A DNA stretch of 64,000 nt from the IMG/VR virus record IMGVR_UViG_3300028821_000038, positions 1 through 64,000 of that record; one strand, given 5' to 3'. The position numbers and the translations under genes are program-made. How positions within the stretch are numbered: position 1 is the first letter of the stretch; each line of letters begins with the position of its first letter. The notes under the pieces were generated by a model. It had not been told where the DNA came from. It worked only from the letters and a program-made list of their open reading frames with translations, and did not search any database. Of this stretch, positions 2,103 to 46,207 are shown one piece after another. This DNA is from a virus.

Positions 2103-2126
2103 TATAATATCCTAAAAACAGGATAT
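2103..2126 (+). promoter_or_regulatory. Promoter with embedded anti-SD hairpin before the helicase
   Basis: The -10 box TATAAT lies at 2103-2108. ATATCCT (2107-2113) pairs perfectly with AGGATAT (2120-2126) around the loop AAAAAC, which hides the AGGA ribosome-binding site of the helicase. A transcript started from this promoter would begin near 2115, inside the loop, and so lack the pairing arm. Read-through RNA from the 1367 gene would carry the full hairpin. Confidence 0.6.
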
Positions 2127-2130
2127 GACT

Positions 2131-4299
2131 ATGGGACTCAAGAAGGATGTTAAGCCAAGAGAACATCAAGAACAGGCTGTTAAAAGGCTATTGCGCTCTG
2201 ATGGTAGTTTAATACTCGCTCATGATGTTGGAACTGGTAAGACCTTAACTTCCATTATGGGTTTTGAGGCTCTTCGAAAAAAAGGAAAAGCCAAAAGAGC
2301 CCTTGTTGTTGTGCCAGCCTCTCTGAAGAGAAATTTTGTAGAGGATGGTGTCAAGAAATTTACGACTGATTCACATCTGGTGCTAGGTAATAAACAAGAG
2401 GCTGCTCATGGAGGAAAAAATGTTAAAAGTATAGATGAGGTTACCCCCCAGACAGCTGCTACTTATAATGTGGTATCGTATGATATGTTCAAGAAAGATC
2501 CAGAAAAATATCTGGATAGAACAAAGGCTGACACTGTTATATACGACGAACTTCATCGTGCGAAAAATGAAACCTCCAAAATTACCGATGTCATCAAAAA
2601 GGTAAGAGGCAAGCATAGAAACTTTATAGGTCTTACGGGCTCTGTGGTAAGCAATTCCCCAGCAGATCTGGTGCCTCTTGTTGATGCCATGACGGATGGA
2701 AAACACTACCTAGGAAACAAGGATAGTTTTGAGTCAAGATTTTTAGATGTTGATTCTAATGGGAGGAAGACCATAAAGAATCTTCCAGTGCTCAAAACAC
2801 TTGCAGGAAAGTATATAGATTTTGTAGATAGAGATGATTTGAAAAATGCAAAGCCTCCAGCGCGAGAATATCATGAACATGATGTGGTGATGAGTCCTCT
2901 TCAGGGGGATTTATACAGATATGCAATTGAGCAACTTGATCCTATTACAAAAGCAAAACTGAAGGTTGGTATCGGAAAGCTGTCAAACTCTGATATAAAA
3001 AAGATTGGCAATAAAATGATGGGGATGCGTCAAATATCTAATGCTCCGCATACGGCTGTATCAAAAATGTCACTTGAGGAGTCGTACAAAAACTCTCCAA
3101 AAGTAAAAAAACTTATCCAGAATGTAAAAGATCATCTTAGTAAAACCAAAGATGGGCAGGTAATAATAGGCACACAGTTTATAAATGGCGGAGTGGATAT
3201 CTTGTCTCACGCCCTAAAAAAAGAGAAAATTCCGTTTGGTGTGTTTATTGGAAAAGGAAATAAGGGAGTTAGTGAAAAAACAAGAAATAAGGCTGTTGAC
3301 GACTATAATGCTGGGAAAAACAAAGTAATTATCCTTACTGCTGCAGGTGGTGAAGGCATCAACCTTCCTAATACTACTGAGGTTCATCTTCTTGATGGGC
3401 ACTTTAACCCTGAAGCTATTAGTCAGCTGGAAGCCAGGGGAATAAGAGCAGGAGGCCTGGCACACAGAGCAGAGAAGGATAGAAAAGTTAAAATACACAA
3501 ATATCGCTCCGTGCAAGATTTGAGGTTATCCAATGTGGCCTCCAATTTATATATGATGGCCAACCCTATCTCTTTGATAGGGCGCGTACTCGACGAAGGG
3601 CCTGCTCTTGTTAATCCTTTGGACAGGGGAATTTCTGCGGATAAGTGGGTGTATGATGTCTCGGATATGAAAGCAAAAAATAACAGGGAGCTGAAGCGCT
3701 CTCTAAGAAAGACCGCAGCACAGCTTATTACTCCAGAGAATAAAATTATGGAGGAATATTACAATAGATTTGGTGATGATATTACTGATGTTGTTGGCAC
3801 AGACAAATATATAAACCAAGACGAGGAACATAAATATATCGACAGACTGAGAGACAGCTATCGAAAAATTGTAAACTCAAAGAGCTATAACAATATTGGT
3901 GCAAAAAAGTCTGCTCTTGCCAAAAAAAATAATCCACATAATTTTACACTGAAGGATTTTGATGATAATGGAAAATTGAAGTTGACAAGTTATTTGGATC
4001 CAAGAAAAAATCTTGCCCTATATGTTGCTCCTGCCGCACTTGGAGGTGCTGGCTACATGGCCGCAAAGAGCATCAAGAGCAAAAAACCTACATATGGACA
4101 TTATATTAGTCTTGGTCTTAGTCTTGGTCTTGGTAGTGGACTTCTTGCTTTGTCTAGATATAGATCTGATTACGGCACATTGTCAAAAGCGGAAGCTAGA
4201 AAAAAAAGCAAGCTTTCTGATGCAGATTTACTAAAAATGCTCAGGGGAGAGAATGTCTCCAAAGAAGAGATCCTAAAAACTAATTATGCTTTAAAGTAA
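2131..4299 (+). CDS. SNF2-type DEAD/DEAH helicase with C-terminal membrane hairpin
   Basis: About 722 residues. The ATG at 2131 is preferred over 2125 because the AGGA site (2120-2123) is then spaced 7 bases away. Superfamily 2 motifs are clear: Walker A VGTGKT (about residues 33-38), DELH box (139-142), LTGS (168-171), and the C-terminal GGEGINL with a Q-x-x-A-R-G-I-R motif VI (406-439), in the SNF2/RapA style. After the motor comes LRKTAAQLI, an example of the L-x-K-x-A motif shared with head proteins. The tail carries two glycine-rich hydrophobic segments (about 628-646 and 657-676), unusual for a SNF2 enzyme. It may be a capsid-carried, ejected protein acting on incoming DNA; this is inference. 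Confidence 0.85.
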   Translation: MGLKKDVKPREHQEQAVKRLLRSDGSLILAHDVGTGKTLTSIMGFEALRKKGKAKRALVVVPASLKRNFVEDGVKKFTTDSHLVLGNKQEAAHGGKNVKSIDEVTPQTAATYNVVSYDMFKKDPEKYLDRTKADTVIYDELHRAKNETSKITDVIKKVRGKHRNFIGLTGSVVSNSPADLVPLVDAMTDGKHYLGNKDSFESRFLDVDSNGRKTIKNLPVLKTLAGKYIDFVDRDDLKNAKPPAREYHEHDVVMSPLQGDLYRYAIEQLDPITKAKLKVGIGKLSNSDIKKIGNKMMGMRQISNAPHTAVSKMSLEESYKNSPKVKKLIQNVKDHLSKTKDGQVIIGTQFINGGVDILSHALKKEKIPFGVFIGKGNKGVSEKTRNKAVDDYNAGKNKVIILTAAGGEGINLPNTTEVHLLDGHFNPEAISQLEARGIRAGGLAHRAEKDRKVKIHKYRSVQDLRLSNVASNLYMMANPISLIGRVLDEGPALVNPLDRGISADKWVYDVSDMKAKNNRELKRSLRKTAAQLITPENKIMEEYYNRFGDDITDVVGTDKYINQDEEHKYIDRLRDSYRKIVNSKSYNNIGAKKSALAKKNNPHNFTLKDFDDNGKLKLTSYLDPRKNLALYVAPAALGGAGYMAAKSIKSKKPTYGHYISLGLSLGLGSGLLALSRYRSDYGTLSKAEARKKSKLSDADLLKMLRGENVSKEEILKTNYALK

Positions 4300-26326: not shown

Positions 26327-26350
26327 TATACTTTCTCCAAAAAGGAGAAA
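26327..26350 (+). promoter_or_regulatory. Promoter with SD-sequestering hairpin before the homing endonuclease
   Basis: An extended -10 element TGCTATACT gives TATACT at 26327-26332. TTTCTCC (26332-26338) pairs perfectly with GGAGAAA (26344-26350) around AAAAA, hiding the AAGGAG site 3-10 bases before ATG 26354. RNA from this promoter would start near 26339 and lack the 5' arm, so its ribosome-binding site stays open. This is the layout known for T4 I-TevI. Confidence 0.65.
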
Positions 26351-26353
26351 TGT

Positions 26354-27850
26354 ATGGCATACACTTACGACTATTTCTTACAATGTCTTGATGGCAGCAA
26401 CGCAAAAATTCTTTCCGAATATAAAAATTCAGCAACAAAAGTATTGATTCAATGTGCATGTGGGAACGCATTCGAGCGTACACCTGAAAAGTGCACAAGA
26501 ACATATCGTTCTATTGGGTCTATATGCTGTGTTGAATGCAGTAAAAAAATTAGAGCTGAGAAGAAAATATCAGACACAAAGAGAAAAATTAAAAAAGAGC
26601 TTGATAGTGTTGGTGCAAAGCTTCTATCTGACTATAGAGCAGGGGAAAAGCTAAGAATTATTGGTTCTTGCGGACACGAATTTGAAAGGGTTTATGGGCT
26701 CATCAAGAGAAGTATTAATACATATGGGGCTGTGTTTTGTATGTCGTGTGCTGCAAAACAAAGAGCTCAGAAGAAATCCAAAGTGAAAGAAAAAGCTAAA
26801 ACATTTAAGGATAATAATGTTGATATTGTATCTTATGGTGACAACATGAATGCGAAAATGAGGATTCGATGCAAATGTGGAGAGGAGTTTGATAGAAGGG
26901 CCGCGAATATAGATATTTGGCTAAGAGAAGGGAGGGAGGTTGTGTGTCCAAAGTGTTCAATGTCGTCATCGTCATCATTTGAAGAGGAAATAGCTGAGAT
27001 TTTAGAGTCTAACAGAATAAAGATAAGAACTAGCGATAGAAAGATAATATCCCCAAAAGAAATAGATATTGTATCGGACGACCACAAGATTTGCATAGAG
27101 TTTGACGGCATGCATTGGCATAGTGAAACTATTTTAAGAAAGAAACATAGATATCCATATAAATATCATCTCAACAAAACAATTGATGCGTACAACGCAG
27201 GATATAAGATGATTCATGTTTTTGAGAGTGAGTGGATCAATAAAAAAGATATTGTGCAGAGCGTTCTATTGGCAAAATTTGGGATATCGAAATATAAGGT
27301 CTTTGCAAGGAAGCTGTATCTATCGAGAGTCAGCTCGAAAGATGCAAGGATCTTTTATGACGAAAATCATCTGCAGGGCTTTTGCAAGGCAAAGCTTCAC
27401 TATGGGCTAGTTGGCGATACTGGAGAGATTATTGCAATGATGTCGTTTGCAAAAAATAGATATTCCGACAAGGCAGATTGGGAGCTCGTTAGATACGCAC
27501 CGAAGCTAAACACATCAGTGATTGGTGGCTTTGCGAGGTTACTAAAACACTTCAGGCGCAACCACGACGGAAGCATATTATCGTATGCAGATATTAGGTA
27601 CTCTGGGTATAATCCATCTGAGACAGTATATACAAGGCACGGGTTTACTTTTGTTGGGTACTCTAAGCCAGGCTATATATATTTCAAGGGTGATGGAAGA
27701 AAAACATTTTCAAGAACTGAATTTCAGAAGCATAAGCTCAGAGAAAAGCTCAAGAGCTTTGATCCAGAAAAAACAGAGTATCAAAACATGCTCAACAATG
27801 GATATGACAGAATCTGGGATTGCGGAAATATGGTTTTTAAAATGATATAA
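26354..27850 (+). CDS. Vsr-like homing endonuclease with three zinc-finger repeats
   Basis: A 498-residue protein. The N-terminal 200 residues hold three similar cysteine units (IQCACGNAFER...CCVEC; GSCGHEFER...CMSC; IRCKCGEEFDR...CPKC), treble-clef fingers for DNA binding. At about 233-258 the motif EIDIVSDDHKICIEFDGMHW, followed by HSE, matches Vsr-like PD-(D/E)xK nucleases. The C-terminal 200 residues (HLQGFCKAKLHYGLVGDTGE onward) form the associated domain seen in phage homing enzymes. It is free-standing, placed between two structural genes, with its own promoter and an RBS-hiding hairpin. No intron boundaries were seen. Confidence 0.8.
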   Translation: MAYTYDYFLQCLDGSNAKILSEYKNSATKVLIQCACGNAFERTPEKCTRTYRSIGSICCVECSKKIRAEKKISDTKRKIKKELDSVGAKLLSDYRAGEKLRIIGSCGHEFERVYGLIKRSINTYGAVFCMSCAAKQRAQKKSKVKEKAKTFKDNNVDIVSYGDNMNAKMRIRCKCGEEFDRRAANIDIWLREGREVVCPKCSMSSSSSFEEEIAEILESNRIKIRTSDRKIISPKEIDIVSDDHKICIEFDGMHWHSETILRKKHRYPYKYHLNKTIDAYNAGYKMIHVFESEWINKKDIVQSVLLAKFGISKYKVFARKLYLSRVSSKDARIFYDENHLQGFCKAKLHYGLVGDTGEIIAMMSFAKNRYSDKADWELVRYAPKLNTSVIGGFARLLKHFRRNHDGSILSYADIRYSGYNPSETVYTRHGFTFVGYSKPGYIYFKGDGRKTFSRTEFQKHKLREKLKSFDPEKTEYQNMLNNGYDRIWDCGNMVFKMI

Positions 27851-32224: not shown

Positions 32225-32690
32225 AATAGTTAGTCTTACAAGAAACAATTTTCATTCAATAGTTACAATGGTGTGGGAAATAATGCATAGGGAGCACCCG
32301 GACTACAAAAGATCAGAAGCTGAAAAGATAGTGCGTGACAATGGGGATAGAGTGGTAGCACTGGAAGTAAATAGTGAGGTTGCTGCATTTTATATCTACA
32401 CAGAGACCCCAATGGTGTACAATCTTAACTTTTTTGGGATCTCTCCATTGTTTAGGAAGACAAAAATGGCATATCGGTTCTACAAATATATGCTAAACCA
32501 CTTGTCCAAAAAGCCGATTATAATATCGATATATTCCGACAATAAAGATATGATAAACTTAGCAAGCAAAAAATGGAATTTCATAGGCAGATTTCCTGCC
32601 AGAGATAACAAAATCATAGAGTATTACTCTATAGGAGATAAAGGAGCGGGCAGTGAAACAGGGCACAGCAGGTATCATCTTGATAAATGA
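32214..32690 (+). CDS. GNAT-like N-acetyltransferase
   Basis: A 158-residue protein with GNAT layout: N-terminal strand-helix (RVEIVSLTRNNFHSIVTMVW), central strand VAAFYIYTET, then NLNFFGISPLFRKTKMAYRF (the acetyl-CoA-binding beta4-alpha3 region, with a degenerate Q/R-x-x-G-x-G/A), and the C-terminal strand pair. GNAT enzymes acetylate amines on proteins or small molecules; the target is unknown. Embedded between a helical protein and the RNA polymerase-like gene, with overlaps on both sides, it may modify a virion or host protein. Confidence 0.6.
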   Translation: MRVEIVSLTRNNFHSIVTMVWEIMHREHPDYKRSEAEKIVRDNGDRVVALEVNSEVAAFYIYTETPMVYNLNFFGISPLFRKTKMAYRFYKYMLNHLSKKPIIISIYSDNKDMINLASKKWNFIGRFPARDNKIIEYYSIGDKGAGSETGHSRYHLDK

Positions 32691-34404
32691 GTATATGCCA
32701 AATGATGTAAAATTCGATCCAAACAAACCCGTAGACTCTAAAGAGTTTAAGAAGAAGATGACAGAGTTTGCTAAGAAACACCCCCAGCTGTATGCAAAAA
32801 ACATAACCCATATTGCATATATTGGGGAGAAAATGGCTTTTTATCTTGGTGCAAATGTTGGTCCAAACGACCTGAAGGTGGACGATAGAAAGGTGTCAAG
32901 TTTTATAAATTCTATTGATTCGAAAATGAAGAAGGCTAAAACAGACGATCAAAAGAGGAATATTCTTCTACAGGGACTTAGCAAAGCGACAGATCTTGTG
33001 CAGAAAGTGACGCCAGACTCAAATGAAATGAAGCAACAAGTGAAATCTGGTGCCAGGGGCAAGCCTGTTCAATTTGCAAGGATGGCCATAGGGCCAATAT
33101 ATTCTGTTGATATGTCTCAAAAGCCTAAGCCTATTCTGATTAGAAATAGCTTTACAAAAGGTCTAAGCTCCAATGAATACTTCAATGTTGCGAGTCAGGG
33201 GCGCTTTGCGTCGGTTCAATCCGCAAATACAACCTCAGAGCCTGGGGCACTAGGAAAGGTGCTTGCAGCTAATGCGGATGACCAGACTGTTACTATGATT
33301 GATTGTGGAACCACGAATGGTATTTTTATGAATACTGACGACAGGCACATCATTGGTAGATATGAAGCTGGCACCAATAAGTTGATAGACGAGGATTATT
33401 TCAACTACCTGAAAAAGCACAAAAAACAAGTTAAAGTTAGAAGTCCGATTACCTGTCAAGTACCCAAAGGAGTATGTGCAAAGTGTTATGGCCTTAAATC
33501 TGATGGCCACCTCCCTGCCGTGGGCGATAATGTTGGTATTGTTGCATCTCAAACAGTGGGGCAGATTATGACCCAGATGGTGCTGTCAACCAAGCATTCA
33601 ACAATCGGAAAAAATGATGATGATTCACTTACTGGTGTCGAGGGGTTTAAAATTATCGCTAACTCACCGTTGAGTTTTACCGATGCAGCTGTAGTATCCC
33701 CCGTAGAAGGGATTGTACAGGGTATTTCCCCTGAGAAGTCAGGTGGGCATTATGTATATATTGGCACAACAAAGGTTCATGTTCCTGCTGGAAAGCGTAT
33801 TATTGTAAAAAAGGGACAAAGTGTACACAAAGGCGACAAATTATCGTCTGGTGTTGTTACTCCAAAGCAGATTTTGTATACACAGGGGACATTAGAGGCC
33901 AGAAAAAAAGAGTCCGATATGCTCCATAAGCTATTTAAGGATTCCACAGGGAAAGACCTGCAGAAGAAGCACTTTGAGGTTATAGCTCGAGGACATTTAT
34001 CTCTCGGTATGGCGGATGATGGAACAGTAGACTCAATCCACACCCTAATGTCAAACTATCCAAGGCTTTCCAGAATGGAAATGGTTGGGCCAAGAATAAA
34101 AGGGAAGTATCTTGCTGAAGATGTAGGCTCCCTATCTAAAGGGTTACAAATTGATGATCGAGTAATGAAGTTGCTTAACAAATGGATGATTCATCGTGTA
34201 AAAGTGACAGAGGAGAGACCTCCTGTTAAACCTCTCTTTAAGTCATTGGAACAAAGACCTGTGTTTGGGCGCAGTCTTTTTTCTAAGCTAAATTATCGTA
34301 ATCTAAGTAAGGCAATCAAAGATGAAGTTGCTACGGTTAAGAGACCGCAGCTTGTGGGCAATAGCTCATCGGATCGAGAAAAACATACAGCGGGGTATCT
34401 ATAA
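32653..34404 (+). CDS. RNA polymerase beta' subunit, C-terminal-half homologue
   Basis: A 583-residue protein starting at GTG 32653 (AAGGAG upstream). It follows beta' order: SGARGKPVQFARMA (about 132-144, bridge-helix SGARG), a trigger-loop region FTKGLSSNEYF (167-177), DCGT with Cys218, then TCQVPKGVCAKCYG (267-280; Cys268, 275 and 278) and VGIVASQTVGQIMTQMVLST (294-313), equal to the beta' GVIAAQSIGEPGTQLTM run. The four zinc-site cysteines keep bacterial spacing. The catalytic DFDGD part is absent. The trigger-loop His/Arg pattern is altered (VASQGRF). It could be a split-polymerase subunit or a virion-borne transcription factor. Confidence 0.85.
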   Translation: MKQGTAGIILINEYMPNDVKFDPNKPVDSKEFKKKMTEFAKKHPQLYAKNITHIAYIGEKMAFYLGANVGPNDLKVDDRKVSSFINSIDSKMKKAKTDDQKRNILLQGLSKATDLVQKVTPDSNEMKQQVKSGARGKPVQFARMAIGPIYSVDMSQKPKPILIRNSFTKGLSSNEYFNVASQGRFASVQSANTTSEPGALGKVLAANADDQTVTMIDCGTTNGIFMNTDDRHIIGRYEAGTNKLIDEDYFNYLKKHKKQVKVRSPITCQVPKGVCAKCYGLKSDGHLPAVGDNVGIVASQTVGQIMTQMVLSTKHSTIGKNDDDSLTGVEGFKIIANSPLSFTDAAVVSPVEGIVQGISPEKSGGHYVYIGTTKVHVPAGKRIIVKKGQSVHKGDKLSSGVVTPKQILYTQGTLEARKKESDMLHKLFKDSTGKDLQKKHFEVIARGHLSLGMADDGTVDSIHTLMSNYPRLSRMEMVGPRIKGKYLAEDVGSLSKGLQIDDRVMKLLNKWMIHRVKVTEERPPVKPLFKSLEQRPVFGRSLFSKLNYRNLSKAIKDEVATVKRPQLVGNSSSDREKHTAGYL

Positions 34405-38174: not shown

Positions 38175-39076
38175 TGAACAAGTATACATTGATAGCGGAA
38201 GAGATTATGAGACGCAAAAAGGACGGAGAAAGCCCTAATACACTAATCAGGAAATATGCATCTGAACATGATTTAAATATCCATGAAACACAAAGAGTTG
38301 TGGAGGAATATAATGTTGGTGTGTTTCTGCAGAAACTAAAAGAGGGAACCCATCACGAAGATTATGAGCTTGCAAACCCAGTAGAGGTGGCCGAAATCCC
38401 GATTACCGCACAGTCAGGCACGAGTACTTTGGACAAGGCAGCATCATATGCCCCCAGGAAATATGCCTTACATGCTGGGATGTTTAGCTTGGATGATCCT
38501 GCTTCAGATGTAGATTCCCACCTCGAGAAGGTTGCATCTTATAATAATTTCACTCATGAGGATTCAATTGAGGAGCGACAAGAGGAGGCTGAGAAAGAAG
38601 CATATAGAGAGATGGCATCAAATGCAGCACTAGAAAAAAAGGCCATGATTAGTTCTTTCAGGGATGCTATGATTACAGATTTGGTTGATGCAAGCAAAGA
38701 GACTGAAGGGTTGACTAAAACGGCTGTTGTAATGCTGGCAAAAGAAGGACTTGCGGACGAAGCAGAAGAAGTGCTTCTGTTGTCAAAGTTTGCCTCATCG
38801 GATTTAGTGCAAGCCAAAATGGAGCCACCCACAGAAAAACAAAAAGCATTGGTTGGTCTATTAAAGGAAGCAAAAGGTAAAAAAGAGGGATATGTTCGTA
38901 GGCTTGCCAAGGATGTTGGCGAGGGACTTAAGGGGACTTATTATGTTGCCAAAACATTAGCCAAGCACCCCTTTTTGACAGCTGGTGGTGTTGGGGCTGT
39001 ATATTATGCGAAATCCAAAAGAGGACATGAGCCAGAGATGCAAAAGTTCAGAATGACAATTGGGGACTATTCATAA
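38174..39076 (+). CDS. Head-type protein rich in L-x-K-x-A motifs
   Basis: A 300-residue protein with six L-x-K-x-A-like motifs: TLDKAASY, HLEKVASY, AEKEAYRE, LEKKAMIS, LTKTAVVM, LSKFASSD. The N-terminal 60 residues include a helix-turn-helix-like stretch (GESPNTLIRKYASEHDLNIH). A hydrophobic patch lies near the C-terminus (HPFLTAGGVGAVYYAKSK, about 272-289). Composition and motif density resemble scaffold or internal proteins that are processed by a prohead protease; not proven. Confidence 0.55.
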   Translation: MNKYTLIAEEIMRRKKDGESPNTLIRKYASEHDLNIHETQRVVEEYNVGVFLQKLKEGTHHEDYELANPVEVAEIPITAQSGTSTLDKAASYAPRKYALHAGMFSLDDPASDVDSHLEKVASYNNFTHEDSIEERQEEAEKEAYREMASNAALEKKAMISSFRDAMITDLVDASKETEGLTKTAVVMLAKEGLADEAEEVLLLSKFASSDLVQAKMEPPTEKQKALVGLLKEAKGKKEGYVRRLAKDVGEGLKGTYYVAKTLAKHPFLTAGGVGAVYYAKSKRGHEPEMQKFRMTIGDYS

Positions 39077-39096
39077 AAAATAAACAGGAGCACTAT

Positions 39097-39234
39097 ATGG
39101 ATACTAAAACAAAAATGCTACTTCATAAGTTCGCAAAAGATAGCTTTAAAGAGTATTTTCTAAAGAAATTTGCAGCGGTTGAACTTGCCAAAGAGGTTAA
39201 AAAAATAATCGCTTCCAGAAAGAGTGGAAAATAA
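39097..39234 (+). CDS. Small basic protein with L-x-K-x-A motifs
   Basis: A 45-residue protein starting MDTKTKMLLHKFAKDSFKEY, with CAGGAG before ATG 39097. Two motif copies (LLHKFAKD, FLKKFAAV) sit in one amphipathic, lysine-rich helix. It lies between the 38174 gene and the promoter at 39237. It could be a short capsid-targeting or DNA-condensing peptide. Confidence 0.5.
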   Translation: MDTKTKMLLHKFAKDSFKEYFLKKFAAVELAKEVKKIIASRKSGK

Positions 39235-39236
39235 AG

Positions 39237-39276
39237 TATAATATAGCATTCCATTAATTAAAAAAGGATGCTATAT
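39237..39276 (+). promoter_or_regulatory. Promoter with hairpin covering the SD and start codon of the 39275 gene
   Basis: TATAAT at 39237-39242. ATATAGCATTCC (39241-39252) pairs with GGATGCTATAT (39266-39276), 11 pairs with one bulged T, covering both the AAGGA site and the first two bases of the ATG at 39275. The expected start point near 39249 lies inside or after the 5' arm, so local transcripts would lack the hairpin while read-through RNA would form it. Confidence 0.65.
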
Positions 39277-40942
39277 GGCAATTGCAGATGATTTTTCCAT
39301 TGCTACCAATGGGGATATACGATATATAGGTGCCAATCATGGGCAAGCTGGAGCAGGATACTACACTGTTTTAGAGTTCCATAGATGGTTACAAGATTTG
39401 GCGGATGATGTAAGTGCATCTGGAGATGATCTTCTCGATATTACCGATGAGACTCCATCGGATCGCTCGACTGACAACATTATTACCCTATTCGAACCAT
39501 ACAATATAGATGACGCAACCGCAGAGCATCTCTTTGATGGTTCTATCATACAGGATGATGGTGATACTATTTATGATGGTATTGTGAACTTCGGTGTCGA
39601 AGGGATACATATCACGCTTGTTCAAAATGGACAAGTTATTGCAAATGACTTCTGGAATAGCACCCCCGATGGCGAAACTCTATCTGGACTCAATAGAGAT
39701 ACTACTGCAGGGATATCTCACCGCTTTATGCTTAAGGTAAGAGACGGTGGGGTAGATATCGATGGTCGTCGTATTCTTGGGCTTTCTCGTGAGTTTGGTA
39801 AAACTTACACCTATTTCAAAATCAACGGAACCGCACGCGGTAACAACGTTTTGGCCCTTACCAATTCTATTGACCTCAACAACCAGACAGATGAAAACAC
39901 TGTTGCTGGCTGGTCTTCCGATATTGTCAATGACAATGAAGGATATATTGGACTGGATGTCGATAATGATGGTACCGTAGAGCATTACTACAGTGAATGG
40001 AGTATAGGTGGTTCATTGGGTATCAACGACTTCTACGAATACATGAAGTACCTTGCCAGAAGCGATGCCTCTGGAACCATATATGGCGTAGATGCCAGAA
40101 TGTTCCTTGGTATTACACACGAGATTGAGATCTCTAACATATCAGGAACCTTCAATGAGCCTGAAAAAGTAACATGGACTGGTGGTAGTGGCCAGATACT
40201 TGCTACGGATAATGCGACAAAGCTGTGGATTCAGTTGCTCACAGGTGTATTTCCTGCTGCTGGTGATACTATTACTGGAGAGGATAGTGGTGCTACAGCG
40301 GATGTAGGCACAACCATTGAACGCCCCATTTCTCCAACTGTGGCTGGCGCATCTACTGGTTCTGCAATTATCGGTGCTTATGGACTTGGAATCAATCCTA
40401 CCGATCTGACGAACGCAGACAAGCTGTTCGACCTTGACAATATTCAGCATACTCCGCCCAACTATGTCACCTTCTATGTCCAGGGGCTTGTTGCTGGAGA
40501 GGACAGAGTACTCGTTGCGCCTGAATACAATGGCGATATCGAATACGACCAATTCACCCTTGCTGCAGACATCACGGCTGGAGACACCGATATACAGGTT
40601 GATTCCACAATTCCTTCCGATACTCCGGCTAGTGGAACAATCAGGGTATTTGATGGATCTGTATATCAACTTGTTTCCTATACTGGATACTCTGGTGATA
40701 CATTTACGGGTTGTTCTAATACTCCTACAGCCACCACAGGCTCTAATGTGTGGATTTCCTATATCGACAAGGTTGCAGACAATACAACCGAAAGCTTTAC
40801 AGGGGTATATACAGGAAGCGACCGCTCTCTGTTTATCAGGGTTAGAGATGGTGGAAACACACCAATCAAGACATTCGAAACTACAGGTACGCTCGGTTCT
40901 GCCGGCGGTTCCACAACTGCTATTCGCACAAGCGACGCATAA
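39275..40942 (+). CDS. Abundant virion structural protein (monocistronic)
   Basis: A 555-residue protein with its own promoter and a strong terminator, and the most C-ending codon use in the window, all signs of high expression. GYYTVLEFHRWLQDLADDVS with DRSTDNIITLFEPYNIDDAT (about 28-47 and 68-87) recalls structural proteins of marine contractile-tailed phages. The rest is beta-rich with Ig-like domains (GDTITGEDSGATADVG; SGTIRVFDGSVYQLVSYTGY). A fibre, decoration or even major capsid protein is possible; I favour a major surface or tail structure. Confidence 0.6.
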   Translation: MAIADDFSIATNGDIRYIGANHGQAGAGYYTVLEFHRWLQDLADDVSASGDDLLDITDETPSDRSTDNIITLFEPYNIDDATAEHLFDGSIIQDDGDTIYDGIVNFGVEGIHITLVQNGQVIANDFWNSTPDGETLSGLNRDTTAGISHRFMLKVRDGGVDIDGRRILGLSREFGKTYTYFKINGTARGNNVLALTNSIDLNNQTDENTVAGWSSDIVNDNEGYIGLDVDNDGTVEHYYSEWSIGGSLGINDFYEYMKYLARSDASGTIYGVDARMFLGITHEIEISNISGTFNEPEKVTWTGGSGQILATDNATKLWIQLLTGVFPAAGDTITGEDSGATADVGTTIERPISPTVAGASTGSAIIGAYGLGINPTDLTNADKLFDLDNIQHTPPNYVTFYVQGLVAGEDRVLVAPEYNGDIEYDQFTLAADITAGDTDIQVDSTIPSDTPASGTIRVFDGSVYQLVSYTGYSGDTFTGCSNTPTATTGSNVWISYIDKVADNTTESFTGVYTGSDRSLFIRVRDGGNTPIKTFETTGTLGSAGGSTTAIRTSDA

Positions 40943-40943
40943 C

Positions 40944-40964
40944 AAAAGCCCCTTCGGGGGTTTT
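40944..40964 (+). terminator. Strong rho-independent terminator
   Basis: AAAAGCCCC TTC GGGGGTTTT: a GC-rich stem closed by a UUCG-type loop and flanked by A and T runs, 2 bases after the stop of the 39275 gene. It can function in both directions. AGGAG for the next gene follows at once. Confidence 0.9.
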
Positions 40965-40975
40965 CAGGAGAAAAT

Positions 40976-43900
40976 ATGATTGATATATTGCAGGATGGAT
41001 CAATAGGTTTTTTTTACGACGGCACTAGGGCTATCAATATATTGCCAGTATTTAACGATATAGAATTGGCATTATCGCAAATAGATACTAGCAATATGTT
41101 GACGAGTGGGCCCTATGGGAAAATGGCCGGCTTTAGAACCTATATGAAACTTCAAGATGGCGATGTAAGTAATGGATACAATAAAAAGACGCTACTTCCG
41201 ACAGACCAAGATTTTTCAATATCGTATTGGGCTAAGCTGACCAATGTAACATCCACTGAGAATGTAGACTTACCATTAATAGGCATTGTTGAGCTGGTGG
41301 ATATTTCAGATTTGGTATCCCAATTGTCGGTTGTTAAAAAAACAGACGGTACATATGTTTTTTATGCTGCTACCAATGATGATAACGATCCAACCTCAAC
41401 AAGTGCGACTTTTGATGCAGAACAATGGAATCACTATTGCTATATTTACGATTCTGACACTAAGAAAATAATTGTCTATCTGAATGGAAATATGGTTGAT
41501 AATTTTGAGTATATATACAAAGATACAGTTCCAATGCACTTGATATTCAATTTTACTGCGGCAACTGCTAATAGCGGAAACAATATTGTTAGTTTCCCGC
41601 GTAACGGAGAGGCGGTAGTAGATTTGAATTTTTCAAATGTGCGTGGCTTTATAAAGAAGTTGTCCGACAGCGAGGTGCTCCAGATATATAGTGAGGATCG
41701 GGAAAAATGTGTGATGTCTGATACAGAAGAGGTGTTGTTCGTTTTTCGGGATAGCGCTACATCTATGCCATTAAAGGGCGGCAAAAATGCAACAGTTACT
41801 CATGACACCACTTGCTCCTTTAAAGACAACTGTCTTATTGATGGTCAGCTCACTGTGTCCATAAACGATCTTTATACTACCCTCCCTTATGCCTATCTGA
41901 GATTTTCGTGTACTGTACCTAGTAGTAAAAAGCGGATAGTGGATGTTAAGAGTTTTAACTTGTTCAAGATAGATGACACCTATGTGTATATATGGCGTGA
42001 AAATTTTTCTACTCCTCACAACAAGGCTGTTGGGGAGTGGGTTGATATAAAATTTTGGTTTGAAAACTGTAGGTTGTTTTATTCTATTGATGGTGTTAAA
42101 TATGCAATAGATAATACAAACGCCTCCTTTATGTCTTTTGGGAGCTACGCTAACAATGCCTCGGATTCTATGTCTGTAACCTTCTATGCAGATGAAAATA
42201 AGATTAGAAACTACTACTATAAATCTGCAGGGGCACAAAGAGAAAAAGGAGAGCAGTGGATAAATATTGAACACTATTATATCAATGTTGCCTATAAAAG
42301 AACAACTGATGGCGTATATCGCTTTTCAAATCTATCCAATATAACAGATGCTTCCAAAACATTAGTGTTTAACACCTGTAATCGGCGAACTGTTGTTGGT
42401 GTTGCAGATGTATTAAATTACACAACAGACGCCGATGAAATGAGTCTTGGATTAACCTTGGTGGATGAAAACAATCTTGATGTTGAATTATACAAAGGAA
42501 CTTTTAAAACATCGTATCGTCGCGTGATAAGCTTTGAAACATGGGAGTATATTGGTCCAGATGGTGGTCCAAATGAATTTAAAATTATAGGCCAATATAA
42601 AGTAGAGTTAGACTCTATAGAATCAACAACAGTTACAATAAATGGAGTTAGTAATGTATCTAAGTGTGTGCCTTTTATAAATGGAATTATGCATACACAG
42701 TCAAAGGATGCTGCCGATGGGTTAACAGCAATTGCATATCTTACCGCAAGTGATACCTTAAGGGTGGTGCGTGGAGCAGGGGCTAATGATAAAACTACAG
42801 TATTTGTAACTGTTGTAGAATTTACAGGCTCCAATTGGACAATTAGGCAAGCCCAGATAGAGTCAGGAGATGATAGTGGAGAGATAACACTTCCAACGAG
42901 TGTAAATGATTGGAATCATGCTTTTATTTATCATCAATTTAAAGCGAATTCAGAAAATCATATCGATGATGCTATCTCGGACACTTCTGCTATATATTAC
43001 CAAGATGATAGCATCATGGATAAAGTGTATTGGGAATTTGATAAGCGACATGTTGATAGCGTAGGTGATTCGAGGCATTACGTATATATAATTGAAAATC
43101 CAGATATAACAGTTTTTAGAGACTCTGGAACGGCAAACACTTATTTGTATCAAGACTACTTTACTAATTTATCACCAAAACCTGCCGCTAATATAACATC
43201 AATGATGATCTCTAAGAGAGCTAGCGGAACTGGCGCTGCATATCCAAGGGGGTGGGCTGGCGCAGCCTATACTGGTAAACATGCAAGAACATGGTGTCTG
43301 CGTAGCGGCAACAAGAATAAAGTTGTTGCCCAACTTGTTCAGTTTGGAATAGATATATATGACACTAGTGATGATACATATATTGGTACGGTTTTATCTG
43401 AAGCAGATATTGATAGCTACTGGCCCTATCAGGGTAATTTTTTCGATTATGGCTCTGCAGAGTTTGCGAATAATTACTCAAACTTATCGGTTCTTGAGTT
43501 TACAGATAAAGGTTCTGATTCGTCTTCTTTTGGGTGCAGAGGGCATTCAAAAGCACTAAAAATAGCTGGAGGCACAGGAGAGTCTATGAGTGCAACAGTC
43601 CAATATATGCTGATGTGCAACTCTCCAGCCTCGAACTTTGGCGCCCATGTGGAGCGAACCATAGGAGGGTGGTTCTCTTTGTCAAAGATACAAGAACTAT
43701 ATTCTGCAATATATAAAGAAGGGGGTAGTGCAAACAATATCGCAATCCTTGTTGGATTTGGTAATACTATAATGGGGCAAGTGGATCAGTCGGTGGGAAC
43801 CACAAAATATGTTCAAGTATATGGAGATAAGCCAATACGACCAAATAGGCCATATCATGTTGCTCTGGTTTATAAAGCGCAGGATGATGTGAAGCTTTAT

Positions 43901-44674
43901 ATTGATGGCAAGCTACAAGAAAGAAGTTGCAATAATCCATATGATACTGATAAACTCCCAAGTCATACGGGCCCTGTGGTCATGGGCATAGATTCCGCGA
44001 TAGACTCCGGCGGCCCAGATGTTCAGTATTATACACCAGAAGCACTATATGTATCAAACTGGTTTAATGCAAACAGAGTGTTAAGTGAAGCTATAATAAG
44101 GGAGGTATTGGTTGAAAGCGGCCTTCCTGCGCTCTATACACTGCCAAGCGATTCATCGCAAGCTTCCATTCAGGGTATGCTTAATAATATAACAGGTGCC
44201 GATTTAGAAGATTATCCGCTTGGTATTCGAATTTATCCCGCAAAATATGAGGATGATTTGTTTTTAGAGGCGGACAATATTGGATTCCACGAAGATATGA
44301 CTTACCACATTCAATGGATGGGGGCGGGGGTTCTTACATGGAAAAACACAAACAACAGCAATGCCTCTATAGCTTCAACTCCAAACAACGGGAGCGTCTT
44401 GTTTTTGAATCCATCTTCGGTTTCAGTCCGTGTTTATGATGCACGAACAGGCAGTGCTATATCTGGTGCTTCGGTATACTTCCCTGAACTAGATAGGTAT
44501 GAGGCGACAGATAGTAATGGCGAAGTATCTTTTGCAGAGTTTTTGAATACCGGTGAAACAATGACTATTAAGATCAGAAAGGCAACAACGCCACCTTATT
44601 ACAAGCCATATAAGATACAATTAGAAATACCAAACGGGGATGTTAATATTACGGCACCCCTAATACCAGACTAA
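40976..44674 (+). CDS. Giant tail fibre/adhesin with LamG-like domains
   Basis: A 1232-residue protein; CAGGAGAAAAT precedes ATG 40976. A LamG/concanavalin-type domain lies near residues 60-190 (SISYWAKL; EQWNHYCYIYDSDTKKIIVY, LNGNMVDNFEYI) and another near 880-1000 (RTIGGWFSLSKIQELY; RPYHVALVYKAQDDVKLYID). Between them are beta-rich fibre segments. The C-terminus (about 1140-1210) has a carboxypeptidase-regulatory/Ig-like fold (SVRVYDARTGSAISGASVYF). Such proteins bind surface glycans; this is probably the receptor-binding fibre. Confidence 0.75.
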   Translation: MIDILQDGSIGFFYDGTRAINILPVFNDIELALSQIDTSNMLTSGPYGKMAGFRTYMKLQDGDVSNGYNKKTLLPTDQDFSISYWAKLTNVTSTENVDLPLIGIVELVDISDLVSQLSVVKKTDGTYVFYAATNDDNDPTSTSATFDAEQWNHYCYIYDSDTKKIIVYLNGNMVDNFEYIYKDTVPMHLIFNFTAATANSGNNIVSFPRNGEAVVDLNFSNVRGFIKKLSDSEVLQIYSEDREKCVMSDTEEVLFVFRDSATSMPLKGGKNATVTHDTTCSFKDNCLIDGQLTVSINDLYTTLPYAYLRFSCTVPSSKKRIVDVKSFNLFKIDDTYVYIWRENFSTPHNKAVGEWVDIKFWFENCRLFYSIDGVKYAIDNTNASFMSFGSYANNASDSMSVTFYADENKIRNYYYKSAGAQREKGEQWINIEHYYINVAYKRTTDGVYRFSNLSNITDASKTLVFNTCNRRTVVGVADVLNYTTDADEMSLGLTLVDENNLDVELYKGTFKTSYRRVISFETWEYIGPDGGPNEFKIIGQYKVELDSIESTTVTINGVSNVSKCVPFINGIMHTQSKDAADGLTAIAYLTASDTLRVVRGAGANDKTTVFVTVVEFTGSNWTIRQAQIESGDDSGEITLPTSVNDWNHAFIYHQFKANSENHIDDAISDTSAIYYQDDSIMDKVYWEFDKRHVDSVGDSRHYVYIIENPDITVFRDSGTANTYLYQDYFTNLSPKPAANITSMMISKRASGTGAAYPRGWAGAAYTGKHARTWCLRSGNKNKVVAQLVQFGIDIYDTSDDTYIGTVLSEADIDSYWPYQGNFFDYGSAEFANNYSNLSVLEFTDKGSDSSSFGCRGHSKALKIAGGTGESMSATVQYMLMCNSPASNFGAHVERTIGGWFSLSKIQELYSAIYKEGGSANNIAILVGFGNTIMGQVDQSVGTTKYVQVYGDKPIRPNRPYHVALVYKAQDDVKLYIDGKLQERSCNNPYDTDKLPSHTGPVVMGIDSAIDSGGPDVQYYTPEALYVSNWFNANRVLSEAIIREVLVESGLPALYTLPSDSSQASIQGMLNNITGADLEDYPLGIRIYPAKYEDDLFLEADNIGFHEDMTYHIQWMGAGVLTWKNTNNSNASIASTPNNGSVLFLNPSSVSVRVYDARTGSAISGASVYFPELDRYEATDSNGEVSFAEFLNTGETMTIKIRKATTPPYYKPYKIQLEIPNGDVNITAPLIPD

Positions 44675-44687
44675 AAAGGATGAAAAG

Positions 44688-44879
44688 ATGGACGCAGCAT
44701 CAAAAAAGAACTTCAATGCAATACAAGAGACAATTAGAAGACAGGCTAGTCGTGCAGATGAGATAGAGAAGAGATTGGCAGCTATGGAGAATCAGCAACA
44801 ACAATGGGAAAACAGATTCAATGGGCTTATGCAGCAAATGCTGTCTATCGCCTCGGCTATTAGAAATGTTAGACAATAA
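44688..44879 (+). CDS. Small coiled-coil protein
   Basis: A 63-residue protein, helical almost throughout with heptad-like spacing (IQETIRRQASRADEIEKRLA), rich in Gln. AAAGGATGAAAAG precedes the ATG. Between the big fibre and the fibre-tip genes, it probably trimerises or joins fibre parts. Confidence 0.65.
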   Translation: MDAASKKNFNAIQETIRRQASRADEIEKRLAAMENQQQQWENRFNGLMQQMLSIASAIRNVRQ

Positions 44880-44888
44880 GGGGATAAT

Positions 44889-45599
44889 ATGGGAGTAATT
44901 TTACGTAGAGACAAGGGCGCTGCACTTACGCATGAAGAGATGGACGATAATTTTGAGTATCTCGACAAGAATCCCAATGGGAAAACAATGCCATCTAAAA
45001 AAGGCATAGGTGTCACCTTTGATTATGATAATCCTGATTTTGGGTGGCATGACTTGCGATGCGAAATGTTGCTTGAATATGAGGGCGGGGATTCGCCAAC
45101 ACTTGAGCAGTATTATGGGCAAATTATGCAGTTGGCATTTGAAGAGGATGAGAGCATTACTTTTAATGCACACATCCCTCACGATTATCTTCCGGGTAGC
45201 AATATATTTATTTATGTTCACTGGAGCCACAATAGTCAAGTAGTAACCGGTGGTTCAGTTGTGTGGGGGTTTGAAATAAGCTATGCAGAGGGGTATGGTG
45301 TAGCTCAATTTTGCCCAACAAAAACTATAAGCATTCTACAGGAGGTATCCCCGACGGATCCGTATACTCACTTTATTGCAGAGACCTCGGCGTCTATCTC
45401 TGGTGGCTCTGATATGCAATTAGATAGTGATTTTCTTACTGTTGATGGGGTGATTCTAGGGAGACTTTACTTGATAGACAATGCTATTGAGACTAGCGAT
45501 GGAAGTATAGTGAAGCCTTTTGCTCATTCTGTAGACATCCACTACAAAAGCACAGGTATCCCAACGCCAAATAGGAATCCAAATTTTTGGAATAATTAA
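44889..45599 (+). CDS. Tail fibre/receptor-binding protein
   Basis: A 236-residue protein. RRDKGAALTHEEMDDNFEYL (residues about 6-25) is the standard short N-terminal helix of phage fibre proteins. The body holds a jelly-roll-like part (HIPHDYLPGSNIFIYVHWSH, then NSQVVTGGSVVWGFEISYAE), a pattern seen in receptor-binding heads of marine phages. It ends PNRNPNFWNN. It overlaps the next ATG by one base. Receptor contact is likely. Confidence 0.7.
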   Translation: MGVILRRDKGAALTHEEMDDNFEYLDKNPNGKTMPSKKGIGVTFDYDNPDFGWHDLRCEMLLEYEGGDSPTLEQYYGQIMQLAFEEDESITFNAHIPHDYLPGSNIFIYVHWSHNSQVVTGGSVVWGFEISYAEGYGVAQFCPTKTISILQEVSPTDPYTHFIAETSASISGGSDMQLDSDFLTVDGVILGRLYLIDNAIETSDGSIVKPFAHSVDIHYKSTGIPTPNRNPNFWNN

Positions 45600-46207
45600 T
45601 GGAACTATATGTTGAAGATGGTTATGTTAGCACTGGTTATGTCCAGACAGGAATTAGTATTGATTTTGAAAAAAAAATAATATTTGTTCCGAAGTATGAA
45701 ACAGAATTAATACAAGATTTTCCTGTTGAAATAAGAAAGTTGGACTTAGAGTATTTTAGGAAATGTATCATAGCAATACTTGATGACACAGAAGGTATTT
45801 TGTATGATGATGCTATTATGTATCATCCAGCGGTTACAATTGGAGTGGCCACAATTGCTCCAACAATTATAGTTGCTAATGATTATGTTGTAGAATTTGA
45901 AGATGGGAGATATATGGTAGAGCTATATGGAGCAAATACTAATCTACAAGACAAGGCTATTTTTAACTCGGTGAGTATTAGAACAAACAATTCGGCAGGA
46001 CTCATTGATAACCGAAAAGAATTCCAGTACTTAAAAGAATACTTGGAGAAATTTTATAATCTTGAGGCTGGAAACTGGAAGATAGAAAACAATCAAATGA
46101 TTTTTTATAAAATCGACGGAAGTGAGCTGATGAGGTTCAATTTATTTGATAAGAACGGAAATCCCTCAGAAAGTGATGTGTTTGAAAGGAGAAGAGTTCC
46201 ATCATGA
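45599..46207 (+). CDS. Fibre-associated virion protein
   Basis: A 202-residue protein: short beta strands, then IIFVPKYETELIQDFPVEIR (about 27-46), then a domain with YVVEFEDGRYMVELYGANTN and a conserved-looking NSVSIRTNNSAGLID. Proteins of this layout occur beside fibre genes in many phages and are thought to be fibre or baseplate attachments. Only 4 bases overlap the next gene. Precise role unknown. Confidence 0.6.
   Translation: MELYVEDGYVSTGYVQTGISIDFEKKIIFVPKYETELIQDFPVEIRKLDLEYFRKCIIAILDDTEGILYDDAIMYHPAVTIGVATIAPTIIVANDYVVEFEDGRYMVELYGANTNLQDKAIFNSVSIRTNNSAGLIDNRKEFQYLKEYLEKFYNLEAGNWKIENNQMIFYKIDGSELMRFNLFDKNGNPSESDVFERRRVPS

Follow-up and report, generated by a model that had tools for sequence, protein, structure and literature searches.

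In a window of 64,000 nucleotides taken from a phage record of 162,314 bases, the leader of the gene at 39275..40942 (+ strand, as are all features of the window given here) contains a predicted hairpin over its ribosome-binding site, raising the question of whether translation of this gene depends upon where its messenger RNA begins. A putative -10 element, TATAAT (39237..39242), recognised from the sequence and having neither a TG extension nor a recognisable -35, is followed by the 5' arm of the hairpin (39241..39251), which takes in the last bases of the -10 as well as the predicted transcription start at 39248..39250, placed 6-8 nt 3' of the -10 from -10 spacing. The 3' arm (39266..39276) runs from the core of the Shine-Dalgarno (SD) sequence AAGGA (39264..39268, found in the sequence and the gene call, 6 nt 5' of the ATG) to the AU of the start codon. 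RNAfold gave a stem of 11 consecutive pairs, one of them G-U, with a 14-nt loop, closing the SD at its GGA together with the first two nucleotides of ATG 39275; this confirms the 11-pair hairpin described in an earlier note on this DNA, where it is drawn with one bulge, in an equivalent register, and the geometry agrees with the placing in that note of the start point within the 5' arm. A co-directional ORF of 45 amino acids (39097..39234) lies directly 5' of the gene and, as a search between the co-directional upstream genes and 39275 found no terminator-like site, read-through into 39275 is plausible.

In RNAs begun at 39000-39237 the predicted probability of the GGA being unpaired was 0.00-0.01, and the modelled cost of opening the SD-AUG region was about 11.5 kcal/mol for RNAs begun at 39097-39237 and 8.6 kcal/mol for RNA begun at 39000, compared to 4.2-4.3 kcal/mol for RNAs begun at 39248-39250 and 3.2 kcal/mol for RNA begun at 39253. 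The short RNA from 39248-39250 keeps a residual structure of 4.3 kcal/mol with the SD still mostly paired in the model, and complete release of the SD requires a 5' end at 39252 or later. We consider it on balance probable that this leader is a promoter-dependent translational lock on read-through RNA, of the type described for T4 gene e, I-TevI and mobE. Read-through RNA from the upstream genes would contain the whole hairpin, with its SD and AUG paired, and would be poorly translated; RNA begun at the TATAAT would miss most of the 5' arm and expose the SD and AUG, and most of the 39275 protein would then appear while the local promoter is in use, which is presumably during a specific (late) stage. 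For this reading we infer the activity of the TATAAT, the start point, the repression and its timing.

The earlier note had pointed to similar sites at 2103 and 26327, and both exist, each with a 7-bp stem over the SD. At 26327..26350 a TATACT and a stem of 26332-26338/26344-26350 precede an HNH homing endonuclease gene (26354..27850; phrog_559, E 5e-119), for which the modelled opening cost was 12-19 kcal/mol in long RNA and about 4.2 kcal/mol in short RNA. The weaker site at 2103..2126 (TATAAT, stem 2107-2113/2120-2126) precedes a gene for an SNF2/phage-type helicase (2131..4299, ATG 2131 suiting the SD better than ATG 2125), and in longer context just 3-4 kcal/mol is needed to open this start in the model, making the site marginal. 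A fourth site, outside the window at record position 153313(-) (L007), has TATAAT and then ATTGGTAGTC pairing with GGATTACCAAT across the SD and start of the 60-aa gene 153274, with a predicted fall in opening cost from 9.5 to 1.8 kcal/mol, and as modelled it is a better site than that at 2103. The 5' arm starts inside or directly behind the -10 hexamer at each of the four sites, and the common feature is pairing to the SD or start. The same lock would act before 26354 (HNH endonuclease), 153274(-) (small gene) and, more weakly, 2131 (helicase).

Homologues of the 39275 product came from viral contigs and from contigs assigned to MAGs of bacteria or archaea. The closest found, in the phage contig L035 (JALWRR010000076.1), has 72% protein identity; its coding start and SD are kept and the leader upstream of the SD has little sequence similarity to that of 39275. 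In the predicted fold of this leader (z -4.1), AUGGC is nevertheless paired with GCCAU and GGAAC with GUUUC, and the modelled opening cost fell from 13.4 kcal/mol with the full leader to 0 from its own TATACT (leader-shuffle p = 0.001). In the more distant homologues L028, L029, L030 and L032 the leaders were modelled as open, with the arrangement absent; those of L031 and L036 were modelled as structured, without such 5'-end dependence. L035 was binned in an 'Asgard archaeon' MAG and L036 in an Erythrobacter MAG, and both look mis-binned or prophage. A change of frame close to residue 97 divides the homologue in L002/L030 (10001-11714 of IMGVR_UViG_3300035698_017437); it may be a sequencing error, decay or a frameshift. 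Another site of similar appearance was seen in an otherwise different phage, which has at G006 24191(-) a long hairpin, CTCCTATACTAAATACT/AGTATTGGTATAGGAG, with TATACT within its anti-SD arm. Helicase relatives (L016-L018) were set aside as a leader comparison, being GC-rich with leaders that are not comparable, no clean comparison was obtained from Campylobacter phage hef leaders, and viral scans found no relatives of the 40976 and 32653 products.

Recurrence within the phage was measured by a leader-swap test, in which the own leader of each gene was compared with the leaders of other genes at blocking the same SD-AUG, using those intergenic leaders, 18 among the 193 predicted genes of the 162-kb record, in which TATAMT stands a short way upstream. 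Blocking by the own leader came to 12.0 kcal/mol for 26354, 11.0 for 39275, 9.5 for 153274(-) and 6.8 for 2131, with the remaining leaders below 4, and at three of the four sites the own leader blocked the start region better than every other leader of the same phage. A start at the -10 lowered the blockage by 6 kcal/mol or more for these 4 of the 18 leaders, against 0.57 expected (p = 0.0002), a result to be read with the site class having been taken from the idea of the earlier note, the set being small and several settings having been tried. With 10 nt more upstream there were again four such leaders (p = 0.008), and with 20 nt more there were three (p = 0.02), 39275 having fallen out because the upstream bases allow an alternative fold. 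The earlier note had suggested a scan of the complete genome for such promoter-anti-SD pairs against shuffled controls and had claimed a repeated design and not a chance hairpin; recurrence above the swap control upholds this in part, but the fold by itself is no more than chance would give, the site at 2103 is a marginal one and only these few promoters carry the design. Pooled across four phages, the test gave 6 switching leaders against about 2.3 expected (p = 0.011), and SD-blocking hairpins were equally common in genes without a -10 (25/178) and with one (10/79), so that a general tie of SD hairpins to -10 sites was rejected; together these mark the lock as a minority design and not a rule. 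TATAMT was only modestly enriched before genes (17, compared to 11 for the reversed and 5 for the reverse-complement motif). In G001, which has TTGAC/TGTTATAAT-type promoters, no leader switched by at least 6 kcal/mol in the swap test.

The bare hairpin at 39275 is unexceptional for AT-rich DNA and it is its placement which stands out. The fold had a z of only -1.26, with 23 of 200 dinucleotide shuffles folding equally well, as would be expected if an AT-rich -10 leader and an AT-rich start region paired by accident, behind a TATAAT which is perhaps no promoter. Such an accident would also fit the 14 of 18 leaders that are without the design, the finding that SD-blocking hairpins are not commoner at -10 genes overall and the modest size of the pooled excess, but we judge it unlikely given the within-phage leader-swap excess (p = 0.0002-0.02) and a case before the closest homologue that is both strong and independent. 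Shuffling only the leader 3' of the -10 gave p = 0.002 for 39275, 0.0007 for 26354 and 0.028 for 2131, and a stricter 60-nt dinucleotide test gave p = 0.07 for 39275; dinucleotide shuffling of 9-11-nt leaders was uninformative and was dropped.

Translational coupling, in which there would be no local promoter and ribosomes ending the upstream ORF would cover and melt the 5' arm, seems to us as unlikely as chance pairing. The upstream stop (39232-39234) is 7 nt before the 5' arm, and the distance is 1-2 nt in L035, so a terminating ribosome could reach it; at 2131 and 26354, however, over 40 nt separate the arm from the upstream stop, which puts it beyond such reach, and the design is still present. 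The arms also lie clear of the upstream coding sequence, and the position of the 5' arm relative to the -10 hexamer, the same in 4 out of 4 cases, argues against coupling as well. The coupling hairpins of polycistronic phage mRNAs are alike in that the downstream start is closed and an upstream gene ends nearby, but differ from the present case, where the 5' arm holds a -10 element and the upstream stop is out of range at two of the four sites. It is very improbable that the inverted repeat is instead a DNA operator, or the RNA target of a repressor protein, even though it overlaps both promoter and SD and the late promoter of I-TevI is overlain by an operator which I-TevI itself binds (PMC2988022), as the arms of the four sites and L035 are all different in sequence, hence offering no common protein site; a common operator for all sites was rejected on these grounds.

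The promoter-dependent lock which we favour is a mechanism long known from the lysozyme gene e of phage T4 and shared by soc, 49, I-TevI and mobE; 39275 would work like that class and is probably a member of it. In the case of T4 e, soc, 49 and I-TevI, the block falls on the longer early RNAs, and translation proceeds from late RNAs without the 5' strand, the arrangement being kept in some T4 relatives and missing in others (PMC3014915). In I-TevII, I-TevIII, segB and Aeh1 mobE, a hairpin hides the endonuclease SD in read-through RNA and the promoter adjoins its arm (PMC2988022). The same calculation for T4 gene e gave 14.9, 2.8 and 0 kcal/mol as the 5' end passed the arm, a modelled opening profile very similar to that of 39275; in gene e, and also in soc and 49, the SD and AUG are paired in read-through RNA and a -10-type element lies in or adjoins the 5' arm. 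T4 differs in using late promoters (TATAAATA, with the phage sigma gp55) where a TATAAT -10 is found here, phage, gene and sequence are all different, and the T4 lock is proven whereas that of 39275 is predicted. The likeness to I-TevI, I-TevII, I-TevIII, segB and Aeh1 mobE extends to 26354, an HNH endonuclease gene with the same layout, but 39275 is not an endonuclease gene. No earlier report of such a lock in this kind of phage was found in the open-licence literature searched.

The 39275 gene encodes a beta-rich, virion-type protein of 555 amino acids and is the first gene of a module common to otherwise different phages. Searches of PHROGs, Pfam, PDB sequences and phage records gave no name for the product, its AlphaFold model was poor (pLDDT 61, from 8 sequences) and the Foldseek matches, to phage tail and structural proteins, were weak and partial, with none in PDB at E 0.001; nothing was found in support of the description of the gene in the earlier note as the most highly expressed structural gene. 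The neighbouring 40976 product has a laminin-G/lectin domain, and 39275 and 45599, partly with 40976 and 44688 (39275-46207), recur together in contigs of phages that have little else in common with this phage, the genes of this region resembling an exchangeable appendage module. The sequence at 40945-40966 (AAAAGCCCCTTCGGGGGTTTTC), directly 5' of the SD of gene 40976, is a strong UUCG hairpin flanked by A and T, and may act either as a leader hairpin or as the terminator at which transcripts of 39275 end. The record also encodes DnaB, RecT, ribonucleotide reductase, RIIA and a tRNA-Leu, together with RNA polymerase proteins which are homologous to giant ORFs in G002 and G004 and which we infer to be crAss-like. 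The genes for the RNA polymerase beta/beta'-like proteins (32653-34404 and record 70349-74671) are separate and about 36 kb apart, and the G002 and G004 relatives have ORFs of 2100-3000 aa where the record has these separate genes.

A broader suggestion, which we regard as doubtful, is that in this phage with crAss-like RNA polymerase proteins such locks could be a recurring device that re-evolved on unrelated leaders, was placed before particular genes (those of the virion module, the homing endonuclease and the helicase) and keeps the read-through of one polymerase apart from expression under the control of another. The device is recognisable in sequence alone, from a -10 within an anti-SD arm. 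If the promoter-dependent lock before 39275 is real, the device would have been met again in an unrelated phage, and rebuilt from different sequence before a homologous gene, and that of T4 gene e would be no peculiarity of the T-even phages but a general way of silencing read-through RNA in phages.
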